From: Gemmatimonadota bacterium | Lineage (GTDB): Bacteria > Gemmatimonadota > Gemmatimonadetes > Gemmatimonadales > GWC2-71-9 | Direction: 5' to 3' | DNA length: 38,728 nucleotides | Assembly (NCBI GenBank): GCA_003222205.1 | Contig: QHVC01000107.1 | Span: forward strand, 1-38,728 | Part shown: positions 4,375-32,896 of the stretch, one piece after another | How positions within the stretch are numbered: position 1 is the first letter of the stretch | Layout: the number at the start of each line of letters is the position of its first letter | Position numbers and translations under genes: made by a program | The notes under the pieces: model-generated | Told to the model about the DNA's origin: nothing | Databases searched by the model: none | What the model saw: the letters and a program-made list of their open reading frames with translations, nothing else

Positions 4375-6540
4375 CTATCCACGAAAGCCCCGCACGATTC
4401 CCTCCAGCTCCCCTGTTCCCCACGCCGTCTTCCCACCTTCTTGAATCTTGATGCTCACCCGCGCGCCGGCCACCAGCACGGCGGGCTCGAGGGCCGCGGG
4501 CTGCACCAGCTCGGGCAGCGCCCGGAGCAGGGCGAAGTAGGCGTCGCTGTACGGCGCCACCGTCACGACGCGCAGCGAATCGCCGTGCCGCAGGTCGGTC
4601 CACACGCTGTCGCGCCGTTCAAATACCCGCGCGCCCACGCGCTGGATCGCGCGGCCGCGGGCGGCCTGCTGGGCCAACGTCGAATCGGCCCGCGCGCCAG
4701 CGGCGGTGACGGTGATCGCATCCAAAGAGACGCTTCCCCGGAAGGCGGCTTGCTCCCGCGCCCGTTGCACTGCTGGGGCTCCGGCCTGGTCTTGCGGCAT
4801 CTGCCGCAGGATCACGCCGTCCACAGCCACGTTCGGCTCCTGCACGAGATACGACGTGTACTCGGTGAGGATGCCGTAGCGCAGCGCCAGGCGCTTCAGG
4901 GATTCCAGCACCTCGGGGTTGGGCCCGTGGAGACGGATCTCTTGCGCCAGCGCGCCGGCCCGGCGGGCCGCCCACAGCTGTTCGATGAACCGCGCCTGCG
5001 GTGCCTCGGTGGAGAAGTCGGCGCTGGCGCTGAACCGCTCCGTGCGACCCGCGCGACGGCCGCTCACCGTCACGGTGCGCTCGCCGTTCCCGGCGCCGCG
5101 ATACCGGCCGAACACGACGACTTCGTCGTTGGCGAACAGGTCGGGCAAGCGGTCCGGCTGCACGTCGTACAGCTCCGCGCCATCGGCCGACAGGTTGAGG
5201 TCGGTCATGACAGGGCTGGCGAGCTTGGCGGCGAGGTCGCCGACGGCGGTCTCGATGTTGCCGCCGGGGCGCACGTACTCCGTCGCGCCGCGGGCGCGCT
5301 CGGTGAGGCGGTCGAGGAGATAGGTGTTGACGTCGAAGCCGAGCCCGAAGGAGAACACCCGGAACGCGCCGCGGTGCTGGTCCGCTGCATCGGCGATGCG
5401 CTCGGGGCTCTGCTCGCCGACTGTCGGCAACCCGTCCGTCAGAAACACCACGACGCCGAGCGCGCCGTCGGCCGGGGGCTGGCTGAACGCTTCATCGAGC
5501 GCGCCGGCGATGTTGGTGCCTCCCTCCGCCTCGAGCCCGCGTACCCACGACTCGGCGTCGCGCCGGCTCTCGGGTGTCAGCGCCGTCCATTCGGCGCGAT
5601 AGCGCCGCACGCCGCTCGAGAACGCCACCAGGCGGAAGCGGTCCCCCGCCCGCAGCGTGCCGAGAATCTGGATTAAGGCGGCCTGCGCCTGCGCGATCTT
5701 CTCTCCGGACATCGAACCTGAGACGTCCAGCACGGCGACCACGTCGCGATGCAGCGCCGCGGCGTCGGCTGCGGCGCCCGGCGAGAGCAGTAGCATGAAA
5801 TACCCATCCTCTCCCGGCGGCCGGTGCGTGACGAGCGACAACCCGACGGTGCGCGCCGCCAGCGGCAGGTACAGCTCCACGTCGCCCGTGGTTGCCGAAT
5901 CGGCGAGGGTCACCTCGAGGCGGCCGTCGTGGCGGGTGCTGCGCACCTGGTGCGTCGGCGAATACGGATCGCCGAAGGCGGTGCCGCTGTCGGTGGCGAG
6001 GCGGAAGCTCCGCGGGGCCGTGACCGGACCGTTCGGATACCGAAACCGCCACGCGTCCCCGACGCGGTCGAGCACCTGGGTATACCGCAACGTGATCTTG
6101 CGCGTCTCGCCCGGCGCGATGGGGAACACCCGGGCGCGCACCAAGCCATGGCCGGCCAGCTCGATCAGCGCCGGATCCCGGCGTCGCCGCACGATCATCT
6201 CGTAGATGTTGCGCGCCTGACTGGCGTCCATCATCTCGCCCCGCAGCTCCTGATCGCCTTGCCACAGCGAGTAGTCGGTGAACACGGCCTCGCCGGGGAG
6301 CGGATAGAGGTACGCGGCTTCGTCGAGCAGCGGCCCGGCGTTCCGGAACCACTCCTCGACGGTCACGCGTGCCACGCGGCCTGTGACGGCCACCTGCACG
6401 GCGGTGCGAACCTTCTCGACCCGGCCGACGGGGATCGGGCGAATGGGAACGATCGGCTCGATCCACCCCTGGGCGGCGAGTGGGGTGGTGAGGGCGGCGG
6501 CGAGCCAGAGGGCGCCGAACCGGTGAACGAGCGTACGCAT
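4375..6540 (-). CDS. VIT and VWA domain-containing secreted/membrane protein
   Basis: Signal peptide MRTLVHRFGALWLAAALTTPLAAQ; VIT-like region; MIDAS VVAVLDVSGSMSGEKI. Confidence 0.82.
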   Translation of the reverse strand: MRTLVHRFGALWLAAALTTPLAAQGWIEPIVPIRPIPVGRVEKVRTAVQVAVTGRVARVTVEEWFRNAGPLLDEAAYLYPLPGEAVFTDYSLWQGDQELRGEMMDASQARNIYEMIVRRRRDPALIELAGHGLVRARVFPIAPGETRKITLRYTQVLDRVGDAWRFRYPNGPVTAPRSFRLATDSGTAFGDPYSPTHQVRSTRHDGRLEVTLADSATTGDVELYLPLAARTVGLSLVTHRPPGEDGYFMLLLSPGAAADAAALHRDVVAVLDVSGSMSGEKIAQAQAALIQILGTLRAGDRFRLVAFSSGVRRYRAEWTALTPESRRDAESWVRGLEAEGGTNIAGALDEAFSQPPADGALGVVVFLTDGLPTVGEQSPERIADAADQHRGAFRVFSFGLGFDVNTYLLDRLTERARGATEYVRPGGNIETAVGDLAAKLASPVMTDLNLSADGAELYDVQPDRLPDLFANDEVVVFGRYRGAGNGERTVTVSGRRAGRTERFSASADFSTEAPQARFIEQLWAARRAGALAQEIRLHGPNPEVLESLKRLALRYGILTEYTSYLVQEPNVAVDGVILRQMPQDQAGAPAVQRAREQAAFRGSVSLDAITVTAAGARADSTLAQQAARGRAIQRVGARVFERRDSVWTDLRHGDSLRVVTVAPYSDAYFALLRALPELVQPAALEPAVLVAGARVSIKIQEGGKTAWGTGELEGIVRGFRG

Positions 6541-8249: not shown

Positions 8250-9383
8250 CTACCGCAGCGGCATCGTGGCGCCGAACATCAGGCCAAAGGTGTTGGTCGC
8301 CAGGCCGAGGTCCTTGTTCTGCTTCAGCATGACGTAGTTGGCTTCGACCCGGCCGCCGAACGCACCGGCCAGATGGAAGTGGTACCCCCACGCCACGTTG
8401 AGGCCAGGTTGACTCACCGAACCCTTGGCCGGGTCGTTGAAGTAGCCTGATCCGGGTGTGGCCTTGGTGTAGACGAGATTGCCGCCCGCCGCCGCGTACC
8501 ATCCACCCGAGACTGCGTAATCGAGCCGCGCCGAGATGTTGGCGGTGAATGCGGTCGTTCCCTGCGACTGGATGCGGTGGATATCGATCCCCGGCTCGAC
8601 GGCCAGCTTCCGGCCGGCGGGGAAGATCGCGAACATCGTCGGGGCGACTGAGAGCACGACGGGACCGAGGATTGATGTCGTGAGACCGCCCCCCCAACCC
8701 GGGAACGACAGGATCGTGATGTCGCCGGCGCCGGAGCCGATGGCGTGAATGTGACTGTAACCGCCCTGCACCCCGATGACGCGATCCCACGCGCTCGTCG
8801 AGCGCGCGGGACGCGCCGTCGCGCCACCGCTGGCGCGCGCCGACACGCCGAACAGCAGGGAGTACACGTTCGCCGGGCCGATGAGGTTGGCCTTCTTGGT
8901 GGTCTGCCAGTTGGCCTCGACGCGGCCGTTCATTCCGCTGGCGAGATGGAGCCGGTAGCCCACAGCCGCCTGGATCCCGAGCTGGGACTCGTGTTGTCCG
9001 CCCGCGTCCACGTAGCCGAGGGTACCGCCCGCCGCTGCGTAGATCTTCGGCGTGAGCGCGTAATCTGCACGGACGCCAAGTGTGGCCAGCGAGAAGGTCG
9101 TGCCGCCGGCGCTGAGCTCTGCCGAGCTAAGCGTCGGCTCGATGGCGATCTTGTCGCGCCAGGGAATGATCGCGAAGATCCCTCCGTAGCTGTGATTCAG
9201 CGGGCTGAGGCTGAAGCTCGGGACGTCGAACAGATCGACGTGATCCTTGGCGCCGCTGCCCGATGGCTTGAACCGGGAGAACCCGCCCTGAATCCCGATC
9301 TCGCTCTGCCACGATCCACGCTGCGCTTGCGCGCTCGTCACGGCGAGCAGCGCCAAGCCCAGTATCACGGTGACTCTCTGCAC
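8250..9383 (-). CDS. Outer-membrane beta-barrel-like protein with internal tandem duplication
   Basis: GTG start preceded by AGGAGG; signal peptide VQRVTVILGLALLAVTSAQA; two similar halves (IGIQGG...GRVEANW; IGVQGG...GRVEANY). Confidence 0.65.
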   Translation of the reverse strand: MQRVTVILGLALLAVTSAQAQRGSWQSEIGIQGGFSRFKPSGSGAKDHVDLFDVPSFSLSPLNHSYGGIFAIIPWRDKIAIEPTLSSAELSAGGTTFSLATLGVRADYALTPKIYAAAGGTLGYVDAGGQHESQLGIQAAVGYRLHLASGMNGRVEANWQTTKKANLIGPANVYSLLFGVSARASGGATARPARSTSAWDRVIGVQGGYSHIHAIGSGAGDITILSFPGWGGGLTTSILGPVVLSVAPTMFAIFPAGRKLAVEPGIDIHRIQSQGTTAFTANISARLDYAVSGGWYAAAGGNLVYTKATPGSGYFNDPAKGSVSQPGLNVAWGYHFHLAGAFGGRVEANYVMLKQNKDLGLATNTFGLMFGATMPLR

Positions 9384-23629: not shown

Positions 23630-24425
23630 CTAGTCGACCGCGGTACAGTCGCCCGCCCGGCGATCGAACGCCGGGGAGCCGTCCGGGAGGCGCCACGAGA
23701 GCAGTGCCTCACGCCACGTCCTCATCGCCCACGCGGCGAATGCGCGCGCGGCGGGATGCGGAGCCGGCTGCCGGACGACGTACAACGTGTAAGGATTGCG
23801 AAGCAGACTATCCGCGGTAAAGAGGGTGCGCAGCCCCAGGTCAGGGGCACGGACGAACGTCGGCAGGTCGGCTATGGCGTAGGCGCCGCGCTCGGCGGCG
23901 AGCTGCAGGGTCGTCATCTGATCTGCGCCGGATTCGACGTACCATGCCATGCCTTGCGGCCGCACGCCGGCGGCGGCCCACAGCGCCAGTTCCTTCACAT
24001 GCGTCCCCGACGAGTCGCCGCGCGAAACGAACCGCGCTCCCGCATGGGCGATGCGGGCGAACGCGTCGGCCGCCTGTCGCGCGCGCGCGACGCCCGCCGG
24101 ATCGCCCGGCGGCCCCACGATGGCGAACCGGCTGGCGACGAGCGGACAGCGCAGCAGTACGTGGCCCGCGAGGATCCGCGCTTCGAGGGATGGCGCGTGC
24201 GTGATCACCACGTCGAGGTCGCCGCGCGCCGCCGACTGGAGGATCTGTCCCGAAGGCCCGATCACGGTGACGACGCGCGCCCCGGTCCACCGCGCGTCGA
24301 CGACGTCGAGCGCGCCGGACTGTTGCACGGTGTACGTCGTGCCCACTCGCAAGGGGCGCGGCGTGCTGGTGCAGGCCGCGAGCGCGGCGCACATTAGCGC
24401 CCCTACGATTCTCCGGAGTGCTGTC

Positions 24426-24427
<2 letters not shown>
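23630..24427 (-). CDS. TupA-like tungstate/molybdate-binding lipoprotein
   Basis: Lipobox CAALAACTS; VQQSGALDVVDARW...VVTVIGPSGQILQSAARGDLDVVITHAP; SRGDSSGTHVKELALW. Confidence 0.75.
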
Positions 24428-26761
<2,334 letters not shown>

Positions 26762-26765
<4 letters not shown>

Positions 26766-27443: not shown

Positions 27444-28811
27444 GTGTCGCGTCTGCGCGTAATCGCAATCTCCGAGGCGTTCAGCGGATTCTGGAACGAT
27501 TTTGCCAAGGACCTCGGGGTCGCTATCGACCTCCTCGCTCCGGCGGACCCCGTCACCCCGAGCCCCGAGACGGTGGCCGTCATCGTCGCGGCGGGCGGGG
27601 CGGAGCGGGACGCGATCAAGTGGCTGGAGAGTCACCGCGTGCCGCCGGGGTTGCCGACGCTGGTCGTCGGCACCGATACCGGGCGGCGCACGGCGATGCA
27701 GCTGGTCGCCCGCGGGGCGAGCGACTACTTCGCGCTTCCGGACGACCTCGAGATTTTCCGCAGCGCGGTGATGGCGGCGCGTAACGGCGACCGCTCGCGC
27801 GCGGCGGCGGCCTCGCACCGAGCCGCGGATGCGTTCGCCGGCATCGTGGGCGAGAGCCAGGTCCTCAAGAAGGAGCTGGCGCGGGCGGCCCGGCTGCTGC
27901 CGCACCGCAGCGCGCGCGCGCTGATCGTCGGGGAGACGGGGACCGGCAAGGAGTTGCTGGCGCGGGCGATCCACGCGGGCGGGCCGCGCGGTGGCGCTCC
28001 CTTCGTGGCGGTCAACTGCTCGGCGTTTCCGGAGCACCTCATCGAGTCGGAGCTGTTTGGGCACGAGCGCGGTTCCTACACGGACGCGTACGCGGCCAAG
28101 CCGGGCCTGTTCGAGGTCGCGGACACCGGCACGTTGTTCCTCGATGAGATCGGCGACCTGCCGCTCAGTCTCCAAGCGAAGCTGCTGCGCGTGATCGAGG
28201 ACAACGAGATTCGCCGGGTCGGCGGGACGAAGTCCCGCACGGTCGACGTGCGCATTCTCGCGGCGACGAACGATGATCTCGCCGAGCGCGTGCGGACGGG
28301 GAGTTTTCGGGAGGATCTCTTCTTCCGGCTGAGCACCGTCGTGCTCGGCCTGCCGCCGCTACGGGAGCGGGGCGATGACATCCTGCTCCTGGCGGAAGCG
28401 CTGCTCGAGCGGCTCGCCGCCGAGCATCGGCTGCCGGTCCCGACGCTGACCCCCGAGCTGCGCCAGCGTCTCCTCGCCCACGCCTGGCCGGGGAACGTCC
28501 GGGAGCTGAAAAACGCCCTGGAGCGGGCCCTGCTGCTGTCCCCGCCTGGCGAGCTGAGCCCCGAGGAATTGCTGCCACCGGCGTCACCCCGAGCCTCCGG
28601 CGAGGGGCCGATCCCTTTCCCAGCGCCGCTGCACCAGATCACGACCGCCGCGGCGCGCGCGACGGTGCAGATGTGCGGCGGCAATCGTAGCGAGTCGGCG
28701 CGGCGGCTGTCGATCTCCACGCGGCGGCTGCGGCGGTTGCTGAACGGGGACGGGGATCTCGAGGAGGAGATGGAGGAAGCCGTCGTGCGGGTGTCGAGCC
28801 GGCGCTCCTAG
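27444..28811 (+). CDS. Sigma-54-type (NtrC-like) AAA+ regulator with pseudo-receiver domain
   Basis: GETGTGKELLARAIH, FVAVNCSAFPEHLIESELFGHERGSYTDA, GTLFLDEIGDLPL, WPGNVRELKNALERA, C-terminal Fis-like helices. Confidence 0.85.
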   Translation: MSRLRVIAISEAFSGFWNDFAKDLGVAIDLLAPADPVTPSPETVAVIVAAGGAERDAIKWLESHRVPPGLPTLVVGTDTGRRTAMQLVARGASDYFALPDDLEIFRSAVMAARNGDRSRAAAASHRAADAFAGIVGESQVLKKELARAARLLPHRSARALIVGETGTGKELLARAIHAGGPRGGAPFVAVNCSAFPEHLIESELFGHERGSYTDAYAAKPGLFEVADTGTLFLDEIGDLPLSLQAKLLRVIEDNEIRRVGGTKSRTVDVRILAATNDDLAERVRTGSFREDLFFRLSTVVLGLPPLRERGDDILLLAEALLERLAAEHRLPVPTLTPELRQRLLAHAWPGNVRELKNALERALLLSPPGELSPEELLPPASPRASGEGPIPFPAPLHQITTAAARATVQMCGGNRSESARRLSISTRRLRRLLNGDGDLEEEMEEAVVRVSSRRS

Positions 28812-28898: not shown

Positions 28899-28982
28899 CG
28901 CAATCCCCTACATCGCAACGACCTGAGCGCATGCGTTCGCGCCGGACGGCGAGGAACGCTTCCTGCATTCCTCGTCGGCACG

Positions 28983-29576
28983 ATGAATCCGGAGCATCGC
29001 GCGGCCGTCCGCCGTTCCTTCACGCCGCTCGCGTTGCTTGCGGGCGCGATCGCGGCGGCACTGAGCTGCGCCGACCCGTCGCCCCTCGGCGTCCCAGCCT
29101 TTCAGAGAGGTGGCAAGTGGACGCCCCCCCCTACGTCCACCGGCGGGTCAGCCCTGGTCGTCTGCTCGCAGACCTACGACTCCGTAACCCAGGTGATCGG
29201 ACCCGCGGGCGGGCTCATCGCCGTCGGCCACCACTTTCTGTGGGTCGATTCGATGGCGCTCGCCGACACGGTGCGGATCACTGCCGTGGCGCCGGCGGAC
29301 ACCGTGCGGTGGGTGCGCTTCCAGCCCGACGGCCTCCAATTCAAGACCAACGGCGCCGGTTGGTCGGCGATCCTCTATACGAGCTTCAAGGACTGCGGCG
29401 TACCGACGGCCGATACGCTGCGGATCGCGCAGGTCACCGACTCGCTGACCATCATCAGATACTTGCGTGCGCCCGACTCCACGTGGGTGCGGGTCAAAAA
29501 GAACGCGTGGAGCCAGGCCAATCAGTATGTCGCCGGGGTGCTGCACCATTTCTCCCAGTACGCCGTCACGTGGTAG
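28983..29576 (+). CDS. Array lipoprotein A (ZU5-like domain)
   Basis: Lipobox ALSCADPSP; YDSVTQVIGPAGG; C-term HHFSQYAVTW. Confidence 0.75.
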   Translation: MNPEHRAAVRRSFTPLALLAGAIAAALSCADPSPLGVPAFQRGGKWTPPPTSTGGSALVVCSQTYDSVTQVIGPAGGLIAVGHHFLWVDSMALADTVRITAVAPADTVRWVRFQPDGLQFKTNGAGWSAILYTSFKDCGVPTADTLRIAQVTDSLTIIRYLRAPDSTWVRVKKNAWSQANQYVAGVLHHFSQYAVTW

Positions 29577-29583
29577 GAGCCAT

Positions 29584-30162
29584 ATGAACTGGAATCGCAT
29601 ACTGGTCCCGCGGTGGTTGCTGGGGCTCGCGCTGGCGGTCGCCGTGACCGCGGCCGTCCTGAGCTGTGCGGACCCGTCGCCGGTCGCGGTGGTTCCCCCG
29701 GCGCTCACCGCTCAAAGGGCCGCTGCCCACGGCCTGATCTCGTGTACCCCGCTCCCCTACGACTCGGTCACCAAGGTGATCGGGCCCGAGGGGGGATGGC
29801 TGGTCGCGAGCGGGCACGTGCTGTTGGTCGATTCGCTCGCCTTAAGCAGCCCGGTGAGCATCACGGCCGTGGCGGCGTCGGACACGCTGAACTTGGTGCG
29901 GTTCCAACCTGAGGGCCTGAGATTCAAGCCGGGGACCCACGGCATCGGCGCACTGGTCGCGACGAACCTCGACAACTGCAACGTACACCCCAATCAGGTG
30001 CTGCAGGTCGCCCACGTCTCCGACTCATTGAACATCCTCGACTTCCTGCCGTCGGTGACGGGGTCCGATTCGGTCGTCGTTACGAAGTACAAGACGTACC
30101 TGGGGTCTCTGTGGGTCGGCGGCCTGCTCCGCCACTTCTCGAACTACGCGGTAGCCTGGTGA
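29584..30162 (+). CDS. Array lipoprotein B (ZU5-like domain)
   Basis: Lipobox AVLSCADPSP; YDSVTKVIGPEGG; C-term RHFSNYAVAW. Confidence 0.78.
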   Translation: MNWNRILVPRWLLGLALAVAVTAAVLSCADPSPVAVVPPALTAQRAAAHGLISCTPLPYDSVTKVIGPEGGWLVASGHVLLVDSLALSSPVSITAVAASDTLNLVRFQPEGLRFKPGTHGIGALVATNLDNCNVHPNQVLQVAHVSDSLNILDFLPSVTGSDSVVVTKYKTYLGSLWVGGLLRHFSNYAVAW

Positions 30163-30173
30163 GGGCGCGGTCC

Positions 30174-30686
30174 ATGAACCTGAGGCATCTCTGGTACTCA
30201 GCACTGTTGGCCGCCGGGCTGCTCGGGTGTGACCAGCCCGGGCCCGCCGCTCCCGACGGGCCTGCTCGCAATCTCGATGCCAGCTGGAGCGACTCCTCGA
30301 CCGGTCTGGTGCCGTGCCGGCCGCTGGCGTACGACTCGGTCACCCAAACGGTGGGATTCTTCGGGGCGGTGCTGCGCGTGAGTCGGCACACGCTCATCAT
30401 TCCGCCGCTCGCACTGACGCACCCCGTCCAGATCACCGTCGTCGTTCCGTCGGACACAGTGAACGTGATCCGGTTCGAGCCGGAAGGGCTCGTCTTCAAC
30501 TATCCGGTCATGCTCACGATGAGCTACGCGAACTGCAATGCGAGCTCCTTCACCGACCTGCGGAAGATCGCGTACACCACCGACTCCCTGCAGATCCTCG
30601 AGTATGAGCCGTCGGCGGACGATGTCTTTGGCAAGAAAGTCACCGCGCGGCTGGCTCATTTCTCGCTCTATGCCGTGTCTTACTAA
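30174..30686 (+). CDS. Array lipoprotein C
   Basis: Lipobox GLLGCDQP; YDSVTQTVGFFG; C-term AHFSLYAVSY. Confidence 0.77.
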   Translation: MNLRHLWYSALLAAGLLGCDQPGPAAPDGPARNLDASWSDSSTGLVPCRPLAYDSVTQTVGFFGAVLRVSRHTLIIPPLALTHPVQITVVVPSDTVNVIRFEPEGLVFNYPVMLTMSYANCNASSFTDLRKIAYTTDSLQILEYEPSADDVFGKKVTARLAHFSLYAVSY

Positions 30687-30746
30687 ACACTCGTGCGCCC
30701 CGTTCCCCTGGTTCGAGCAGCGCTCGCGCGCAGCAGGAGGATCCTC

Positions 30747-31325
30747 GTGAAGTTCGCGCAGCACCTACGGTACTCGGTGTGGCTTGTCGCCGCGGTCGTC
30801 GCGGTTTCGAGCTGTGGAGATCGCACGGCGACCGGTCCCGCGATTCAGGCCTCCGCCAGCACGGCGGCGCAGGGTCCGGCGGCCGAGCGGGCCGTAAAGA
30901 ACGGCGGCAAGCGCACCGGGTTACTGCGGTGCGCCGCGGCGTCTGAGGATGATTCCGACGAGGAGTCCGAGGGCGAGCCCGAGAGCGAAGTGCTCGGTCC
31001 CGAAGGCGGGACGATCGGCGCGGGACCGGCCAGCCTGGTAGTCCCACGGGGTTCGCTCACGGATACGGTGACGATCACCGTGGAGGTCACTGGCGATACG
31101 GTGCGCGCCGTGCGGCTGCTGCCGCAGGGGCTCGTATTCCAGCAGCCCGCCTACCTCGTGTTGAGTTACGGCGACTGCAAAACCACCGGGAACAGTCCGA
31201 AACGCATCGCCTATACGAGCGACGCCTGGACGATCCTCGAGTACGAGCAGTCGTGGGATGATCCGCACAACAAGAAAGTTACCGGCGAGCTGAACCACTT
31301 CTCGAATTACGCTGTGGCCTGGTAG
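30747..31325 (+). CDS. Array lipoprotein D (ZU5-like domain)
   Basis: GTG start with AGGAGG upstream; lipobox AVSSCGD; SEVLGPEGGTIGAGPASLVVPRGSL; C-term NHFSNYAVAW. Confidence 0.77.
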   Translation: MKFAQHLRYSVWLVAAVVAVSSCGDRTATGPAIQASASTAAQGPAAERAVKNGGKRTGLLRCAAASEDDSDEESEGEPESEVLGPEGGTIGAGPASLVVPRGSLTDTVTITVEVTGDTVRAVRLLPQGLVFQQPAYLVLSYGDCKTTGNSPKRIAYTSDAWTILEYEQSWDDPHNKKVTGELNHFSNYAVAW

Positions 31326-31332
31326 GACACCC

Positions 31333-32034
31333 ATGGACTTGGAGACTGGCATGTCGATGCGCCCCCTTGCCCTGATCCCGCTCGCGCTCGCGCTCGTGCT
31401 GTTCGCGGCGGGATGCTCCGACGAGCGACATCCGACCGCCGTCGAGCCCCCGGGCCCGCATTTCCTCCGGTGGGCGGGGAACACCGCCCCGCTGTTCACG
31501 ACCGGCGATACCTCCTTGCCGGCCAGCGACGTCGGATTTCCCATGGCGTCCCTGTCCGATGGTGGGCTCAGCCTCGATCGCAACTCGGCGACCTTCTGGG
31601 CGGTGCGCGGCGAGCAGCGCTCCATCCAGATCAATTACCTGAGCTTCACCGGGGACACCAGCTCCCCGTTCCTGCGCCTGACGATCACCGATCCGGTCTA
31701 CGTGCCGGGTCGCGGCGACCTCGCGCCGGGTGATTCGGTCGAGATCACGGTGACGATCGATCCGTCCACCATCAAAGTGTCGCTCGATCCGACGGGCACG
31801 TTGTTCGGAGATCCGGCCCAGCTGCAGATCTCCTATGGCGGCGCCGACGGGGACCTGAACGGAGACGGTGTCGTAGACGCGACCGACGCCGCGATCGAGC
31901 AGCAGTTGCTGGGGTTGTGGTATTGCGAGGGAGAAGGATGCGCCTGGACCAAGATCCCGGCGACCCACTCTCTCGCGGACAAGGCGTTCACCGCGGCGTT
32001 GGCGCACTTCTCCCTCTACGCTGTGTCCTTTTAG
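31333..32034 (+). CDS. Array lipoprotein E with EF-hand/dockerin-like loop
   Basis: Lipobox FAAGCSD; DGDLNGDGVVDATDA; C-term AHFSLYAVSF. Confidence 0.76.
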   Translation: MDLETGMSMRPLALIPLALALVLFAAGCSDERHPTAVEPPGPHFLRWAGNTAPLFTTGDTSLPASDVGFPMASLSDGGLSLDRNSATFWAVRGEQRSIQINYLSFTGDTSSPFLRLTITDPVYVPGRGDLAPGDSVEITVTIDPSTIKVSLDPTGTLFGDPAQLQISYGGADGDLNGDGVVDATDAAIEQQLLGLWYCEGEGCAWTKIPATHSLADKAFTAALAHFSLYAVSF

Positions 32035-32042
32035 GGAGCGAC

Positions 32043-32207
32043 ATGCGTTTCTCGCTCCGGGTTTGCACGCCTAACGCCTCGATCGGAGGTGGGGCCGGTG
32101 GGATGGTAGGACGGGACGGTCCAGCCCGGCCGGCGCCATGGACGCATCCGAGCCCGGCGGTCGATCCCACCGTCCGGCATTGTTCGAACTACGCGGTGGC
32201 GTACTGA
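32043..32207 (+). pseudogene. Internally deleted relic of an array lipoprotein
   Basis: 54-codon ORF ending VRHCSNYAVAY*, in line with paralogs but lacking the central domain. Confidence 0.55.
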
Positions 32208-32245
32208 TGCCGCGCGGGATGGGGTCCTTCACGGAAGGAGTGGGA

Positions 32246-32896
32246 ATGACGTCTCGACATTGGTGGCTGCTGGCGATCCCGGTGGGGCTGGTCGTGGCCG
32301 CCTGCCGCGATGCGACCGCGCCGCTCTCCCCGCGCGACGAGGTCGGCCCGCAGACGAACTACGTGACCGGCCCGCCGGCGAATTACGCGGCGGATTGGTT
32401 CACGCCGTGCATCCTCCAGCAAGCGGCGGATGCGCCGCCGCTCGAGACTTACCAGGTCTCCGTCTGGGTCCGCCACGACCGGGAGACGAACGTCGCGGTC
32501 AACTACCAGTCCGGCGATCCCTACCTCAGCTTCCGCATTCCCCGCTTCGGCCTGATGTGGGCTCCCGACGGGTCGCGGTTCCAGGGGAGCGATTCGGTCC
32601 TGGTGACGCTGACCCTCGATCCCGTCAACCTCTCCGTGACCTTCCAGCCCTCCGGGCTGGTGTTCTCCACCGTGTTCGCGGCGCAGCTGGTCATGTACTA
32701 CGACCACGCGAATCCGGATCTGAACGGCGACGGCGTCGTGAATTGGACGGACGCGTTGTTGAAGCTGCGGCTGGGGATCTGGGGGACCAGTGAGAGATCG
32801 CCGCGATGGTTCAAGGTCGCGTCGAGGAACAACACGTCACAGCAGTTTGTAGCGGGCTACATCTACCACTTCTCGCTGTACGCGGTGTCGTATTAG
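32246..32896 (+). CDS. Array lipoprotein F with EF-hand/dockerin-like loop
   Basis: SD AAGGAG, lipobox VVAACRD; NPDLNGDGVVNWTDA; C-term YHFSLYAVSY. Confidence 0.77.
   Translation: MTSRHWWLLAIPVGLVVAACRDATAPLSPRDEVGPQTNYVTGPPANYAADWFTPCILQQAADAPPLETYQVSVWVRHDRETNVAVNYQSGDPYLSFRIPRFGLMWAPDGSRFQGSDSVLVTLTLDPVNLSVTFQPSGLVFSTVFAAQLVMYYDHANPDLNGDGVVNWTDALLKLRLGIWGTSERSPRWFKVASRNNTSQQFVAGYIYHFSLYAVSY

Follow-up and report, generated by a model that had tools for sequence, protein, structure and literature searches.

The window analyzed here is the whole 38,728-nt stretch of contig QHVC01000107.1, from a Gemmatimonadota bacterium. Its + strand carries an array of lipoprotein genes (A–F, Table 1), and the six products have a common C-terminal end, HFSxYAVx[WYF], with the stop codon right after it. 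The ZU5/GAIN/Nup98 superfamily has HF|S as an autoproteolysis triad, and the common end consists of this triad and the final strand of the fold.

Lipoprotein genes and their common end

The original prediction, made from the DNA letters, described a tandem array of six lipoprotein genes with a kept end motif. The six consecutive open reading frames on one strand were confirmed, with C-terminal ends exactly as quoted there, and the lipoboxes and a motif scan bear the description out. The number six is correct for the full genes, but a seventh, truncated copy had been overlooked. For the scan, the regular expression H[FLC][ST]x[YF]A[VL] was run over six frames of the whole window. It matched seven times, every time on the + strand, inside the array and immediately before a stop codon, whereas we estimate that well below one match would be expected by chance. 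The codons of the tail are not the same from paralogue to paralogue, and conservation therefore acts at the protein level.

Table 1. Positions of the array genes, their neighbors, and related features. Positions refer to the window unless a locus number is given.
Feature	Position	Strand	Remarks
Lipoprotein A	28983..29576	+	ZU5 type; ends HHFSQYAVTW; lipobox LSC
Lipoprotein B	29584..30162	+	ZU5 type; ends RHFSNYAVAW; lipobox LSC
Lipoprotein C	30174..30686	+	ZU5 type; ends AHFSLYAVSY; lipobox LGC
Lipoprotein D	30747..31325	+	GTG start; ZU5 type; ends NHFSNYAVAW; lipobox SSC
Lipoprotein E	about 31333/31357-32034	+	ZU5-like, inserted EF-hand loop DLNGDGVVDATD; ends AHFSLYAVSF; lipobox AGC
Truncated lipoprotein copy, 54 aa	32043..32209	+	MRFSLRVC...TVRHCSNYAVAY*; tail RHCSNYAVAY kept
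Lipoprotein F	about 32246-32896	+	ZU5-like with EF-hand loop; ends YHFSLYAVSY; lipobox AAC
Sigma-54 enhancer-binding activator	27444..28811	+	Pfam Sigma54_activat E=5.6e-64
Sigma-54 -24/-12-like site AGGAACGCTTCCTGCA	28952..28967	+	GG-N10-GC; also palindrome GGAA-CGC-TTCC
Cytoplasmic TPR protein, 701 aa	32946..35051	+	TPR_12 E=8.8e-32; sequence without signal peptide; conserved neighbor
TPR-HD-GYP protein, 548 aa	35074..36720	+	HD_5 E=3.1e-34; TPR_12 E=2.2e-31
Prolyl oligopeptidase/dipeptidyl peptidase IV-like S9 peptidase gene	23949-26765		upstream of the operon
Response regulator with degenerate GGDEF	L010 4101-5072		GGDEF replaced by GPTEF
OppA-like SBP_bac_5 genes	L009 5332-7470; L043 11937-13667; L067 7164-8927; L068 11635-13269; L069 1427-3052		beside TPR/TPR-HD-GYP
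Shortened copies (besides 32043..32209)	L043 9389-9691; L044 4442-4630; L089 about 8600-8863; L112 about 5983-6183		like the window copy, SNYAVA[WY] in frame before stop

Fold of the domain and the triad at its end

The proteins of the family are about 190 residues long and have a single domain. An AlphaFold2 model of mature protein C was built on a 58-sequence alignment (predicted local distance difference test, pLDDT, 88.9 and about 97 in the core; predicted template modeling score 0.79) and compared with the PDB by Foldseek. The best 17 PDB matches are all ZU5 domains (ankyrins, ZO-1, and UNC5b; E-values 2e-5 to 9e-3). Next come the GAIN domains of CD97 and BAI3 and, at lower confidence, that of GPR56. 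The model of protein F is weaker (pLDDT 70.7), and its top match is an ankyrin-B chain containing ZU5 (probability 1.00, E=7e-3). A ZU5 β-sandwich is thus predicted for protein C and, less firmly, for protein F. The ZU5 resemblance that had been noted in the core is supported by the Foldseek result for protein C, and both models point to ZU5 rather than to unrelated folds.

Proteins A–D have the ZU5 core in common, while E and F differ from them in appearance. The profiles of the two types match each other (for most members with E-values between about 1e-4 and 1e-8) and the models of both point to ZU5 folds, showing that E and F belong to the same superfamily as A–D, and the array represents a diversified lipoprotein family, as originally described. 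Within their ZU5-like domain, proteins of the E/F type have a single canonical EF-hand loop for calcium binding (DLNGDGVVxxxD). A dockerin/cellulosome reading of E and F was rejected, since there is a single loop instead of duplicated EF-hand repeats and the Dockerin_1 score (E=3.7e-4) is below the cut-off. A scan of NCBIfam gave no meaningful match.

Cleavage takes place at HF/S in the ZU5 domains of PIDD, at HFS in Nup98, and at SF/S in CARD8/NLRP1; at these sites, the Phe residue is buried and the Ser residue is the nucleophile (PMC3210808). GAIN domains have HL|S/T as their triad, and their tethered agonist is the last strand (PMC11697300). The position of the triad in protein C should be noted. 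According to the DSSP assignment of the model, a strand (residues 137–144) ends on H144, F145 and S146 lie outside strands, and a terminal strand (residues 147–151) follows. Sequence and model together place an H-[FL]-[S/T/C] triad just ahead of the predicted last strand, and judging from the secondary structure, the strand break at the predicted scissile bond is the arrangement expected of a cleaving domain.

Eighty-eight distinct relatives were collected by a hidden Markov model (HMM), without use of the motif as a search pattern. His is found in 85/88 of them, the second position is Phe in 83 and Leu in 5, and the third is Ser in 84, Cys in 3, and Thr in 1. Since F/L and S/C/T are kept in all 88, the end signature characterizes the whole family and not the window array alone. 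The corresponding counts in a wider set of 146 proteins are 142/146 for His and 146/146 for both F/L and S/C/T. Few columns are invariant in the alignment of the A–D type, and these include the His, the Ser, and the lipobox Cys. By information content, the His, Tyr, and Phe at the end belong to the top columns of the domain. Ser is swapped only for Cys or Thr, which is the pattern expected of a nucleophile in an acyl shift. The distance from the predicted cut to the protein end is 7 residues in 118/146 proteins and 8–23 in the rest. Unlike in known autoproteolytic domains, no functional domain follows the site, the longest tail being 23 residues.

The triad counts in the 88 relatives point to strong selection on the C-terminus and so support the earlier suggestion of such selection. 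The idea of a folding edge is correct in that residues 147–151 of protein C form the terminal strand, but the edge is not an arbitrary one. A sorting signal (PEP-CTERM or outer-membrane protein β-signal), which had also been suggested, was rejected because anchoring is already provided by the lipobox and the motif is part of the folded domain.

Operon, promoter-like site, and distribution

The six-gene array had been taken as the unit, whereas the unit is an operon that also contains the genes of a sigma-54 activator, TPR proteins, and a TPR-HD-GYP protein. The recurring gene order is sigma-54 activator, lipoproteins of both types, TPR protein, lipoprotein, and TPR-HD-GYP, and a homologue of the activator stands before the arrays in relatives. 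The N-terminus of the activator is degenerate and receiver-like, with no match to a Pfam receiver domain. The motifs HDLGK and HHERYDGTGYP are intact in the TPR-HD-GYP protein, which is predicted from these motifs to be a cyclic-di-GMP phosphodiesterase. With a -24/-12 matrix written from the known consensus, the site in the window scores 10.5; random controls average 3.6. The first genes of sigma-54-linked arrays are often preceded by GGAACGCTTCCTGC or a close variant, and their mean score is 10.6 (random stretches: mean 3.6, 99th percentile 11.3).

A TPR or TPR-HD-GYP gene lies directly downstream on the same strand in 44/63 HMM-found runs. In a motif-found set, which overlaps the HMM-found set in part, such a gene is directly downstream of 47/54 runs, and the background among other genes of the same loci is 23/372 (about 6%). 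The linkage holds at the genus, family, order, and class levels, and the source genome has three further lipoprotein loci, each beside TPR-HD-GYP genes. The lipobox, the many paralogues, their strong divergence, and the EF-hand loops in E and F would suit ordinary surface adhesins or structural lipoproteins of the envelope that have TPR/HD-GYP neighbors through shared regulation only. We regard this explanation as very improbable; the persistence of the linkage from genus to class argues against it.

Where the activator is absent, a lipoprotein gene and a TPR-HD-GYP gene often have a response regulator with a degenerate GGDEF domain ahead of them. The example in Table 1 represents a regulator that, in many relatives, precedes loci with a single lipoprotein copy and a TPR-HD-GYP gene. 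PADLOC gave generic AAA and TPR matches only, with the sigma-54 activator aligning to RtcR models from residue 101, in the AAA region; no defence assignment was therefore made. The S9 peptidase gene in Table 1 was also observed upstream of the operon.

In profile searches, the family was found in 27/61 close relatives and in 99/249 sampled genomes across Gemmatimonadota; the named records among the matches are metagenome-assembled genomes (MAGs) of Gemmatimonadetes. A search for related loci with the broad family alignment gave no conserved stretch, but a closer subset did give loci. Tandem copies are present in several genera, and 13/63 HMM-found runs hold at least two genes, runs being divided at any TPR gene in between. 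In the tree, A and B of the window each pair with the gene of the same order in the array of another genus (G024). The identities are 81% for A and 72% for B, with ratios of nonsynonymous to synonymous differences (pN/pS) of 0.26 and 0.46, respectively; divergence is greater for C and D. The orthologues in the same order and the pN/pS values indicate that the array is old and maintained. The family is therefore not one of scattered ZU5 proteins, since arrays are conserved across Gemmatimonadota.

Typical gemmatimonad copies or operons were also seen on contigs of MAGs labeled Chloroflexi or 'Terrabacteria' (L083, L094, and L114), probably through misbinning rather than transfer. A second version of the window locus (L011, G000:C200), in which the start of the TPR-HD-GYP gene is near-identical and the lipoprotein has diverged, is either a duplication or a strain variant in the assembly.

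Proposed self-cleavage and alternative explanations

We propose, with a probability of roughly 0.6, that the array encodes self-cleaving lipoproteins with a single ZU5 domain that belong to a sigma-54/TPR/HD-GYP signaling operon. The six genes would give exported lipoproteins, each consisting of one ZU5-superfamily domain that ends in the H-F-S triad and one β-strand. After folding, the Ser (or Cys/Thr) residue would attack the preceding Phe-Ser bond through an N-to-O or N-to-S acyl shift, by analogy with PIDD, Nup98, and GAIN. The C-terminal heptapeptide SxYAVx[WYF] would then stay bound non-covalently as an edge strand, and might be released by force, a ligand, or unfolding. The operon of activator, lipoproteins, TPR protein, and TPR-HD-GYP may be an envelope-sensing signaling unit, whose output would act on the TPR partners and cyclic-di-GMP. 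This proposal is based on the ZU5 fold prediction, the near-invariant triad and its limitation to Ser/Cys/Thr, the strand break, the conservation of array and operon, and the sigma-54-like promoter.

Several observations weigh against the proposal. Pfam ZU5 matches protein C with E=0.002 and 18.8 bits, under the gathering cut-off of 21 bits, and only 5/58 family members match at E<=0.01 (best E 0.0011); by Pfam score, the family is a remote ZU5 member only. A sequence-profile search of the PDB with the family alignment gave nothing significant. The linkage within the operon is silent on the direction or nature of a signal. The predicted cleavage would take off just 7 residues. In known ZU5/GAIN cleavers, the C-terminal fragment is large, and we know of no precedent for a cut 7 residues from a protein end. 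The lack of precedent also favors another explanation, which is possible though distinctly less probable than self-cleavage: the proteins may be lipoproteins of ZU5 fold that no longer cut themselves, in which His, Phe, and Ser close the β-sandwich, the tail is an edge strand, and the function is surface binding. The tail alternates like a strand, with Y, V, and W conserved and x variable, and is placed at high confidence in the modeled sandwich. However, Ser is replaced only by residues capable of an acyl shift, and His is kept almost throughout the HMM-found relatives. UNC5b has Leu where the buried Phe would be (PMC3210808), and the fold itself therefore needs no exact triad.

The family was also compared with known systems. 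In 2012, Zhang et al. (PMC3482391) proposed that bacterial toxins and large surface proteins contain autoproteolytic ZU5 domains. The present proteins resemble those in being bacterial, extracytoplasmic, of the same superfamily, and proposed to cut themselves, but are single-domain lipoproteins in arrays and signaling operons instead of large multidomain proteins with RHS, SpvB, toxin, or adhesion modules. They have the predicted ZU5 fold and the identical H-F-S triad at the domain end in common with PIDD. Contrary to PIDD and the FIIND of CARD8/NLRP1 (SF/S), they are exported bacterial lipoproteins with no UPA or death domain and only a 7-residue strand after the site. As in the GAIN/GPS of adhesion G protein-coupled receptors (GPCRs), an H-[L/F]-[S/T] triad is followed by the last strand, and the fold matches include GAIN domains. 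Unlike GAIN, there is no seven-transmembrane region, no helix in the model of protein C (hence no helical subdomain A), and the last strand is the protein end.

Self-cleaving ZU5/GAIN domains are central to adhesion GPCRs, the PIDDosome, and the NLRP1/CARD8 inflammasomes. The family offers stand-alone versions with an almost invariant triad, tied to a defined signaling operon and small enough for direct study of the chemistry and of last-strand release, and it points to an undescribed envelope-to-cytoplasm signaling unit in a common soil phylum. In the open-access literature searched, we found no account of single-domain, array-forming ZU5 lipoproteins that have nothing after the site and are tied to such an operon, no paper that treats HD-GYP and TPR together in Gemmatimonadetes, and no link between ZU5 and Gemmatimonadetes except in Zhang 2012.

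Signaling by a peptide in the manner of the RRNPP systems of Firmicutes is unlikely. In such a scheme, self-cleavage would free SxYAVxW outside the cell, an oligopeptide system would bring it in, and the cytoplasmic TPR or TPR-HD-GYP protein of the neighboring gene would read it. Mature RRNPP peptides are usually the last 4–10 residues of a propeptide, with the TPR receptor gene adjacent (PMC10075063). The likeness lies in the exported precursor beside TPR genes, as in the 44/63 runs above, and in the short C-terminal peptide that cleavage would give. About eight distinct loci (L009, L043, L056, L062, L067, L068, L069, and L094) have an OppA-like SBP_bac_5 gene next to the operon, although the source genome has only five SBP_bac_5 genes. 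However, these are a minority of the loci, no permease is seen adjacent, and the hydrophobic tail looks structural. The tails of the paralogues are near-identical, and therefore carry no code specificity. Unlike RRNPP systems, the operon belongs to a Gram-negative phylum and has a folded precursor, with TPR-HD-GYP in place of helix-turn-helix (HTH) receptors. RRNPP receptors have 250–500 residues and typically a DNA-binding domain, whereas the TPR proteins of the window are larger (Table 1) and have no HTH match. The RRNPP-like reading of the operon is thus attractive but weak. It is improbable that a folded ZU5 lipoprotein of a Gram-negative bacterium cuts itself, stores SxYAVxW as an edge strand, and releases it on a stimulus, and that the imported peptide, read by TPR/TPR-HD-GYP, sets cyclic-di-GMP. 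If true, such a mechanism would be the bacterial counterpart of a GAIN tethered agonist joined with RRNPP signaling.

In the shortened copies (Table 1), neither the ZU5 core nor an intact HFS triad remains. Several of them lack HF yet keep SNYAVAW, which would favor peptide signaling. They were rejected as functional mini-peptides in spite of the kept tail, since purifying selection is not seen: the copies of L044 and L089 differ by five nonsynonymous changes and one synonymous change.

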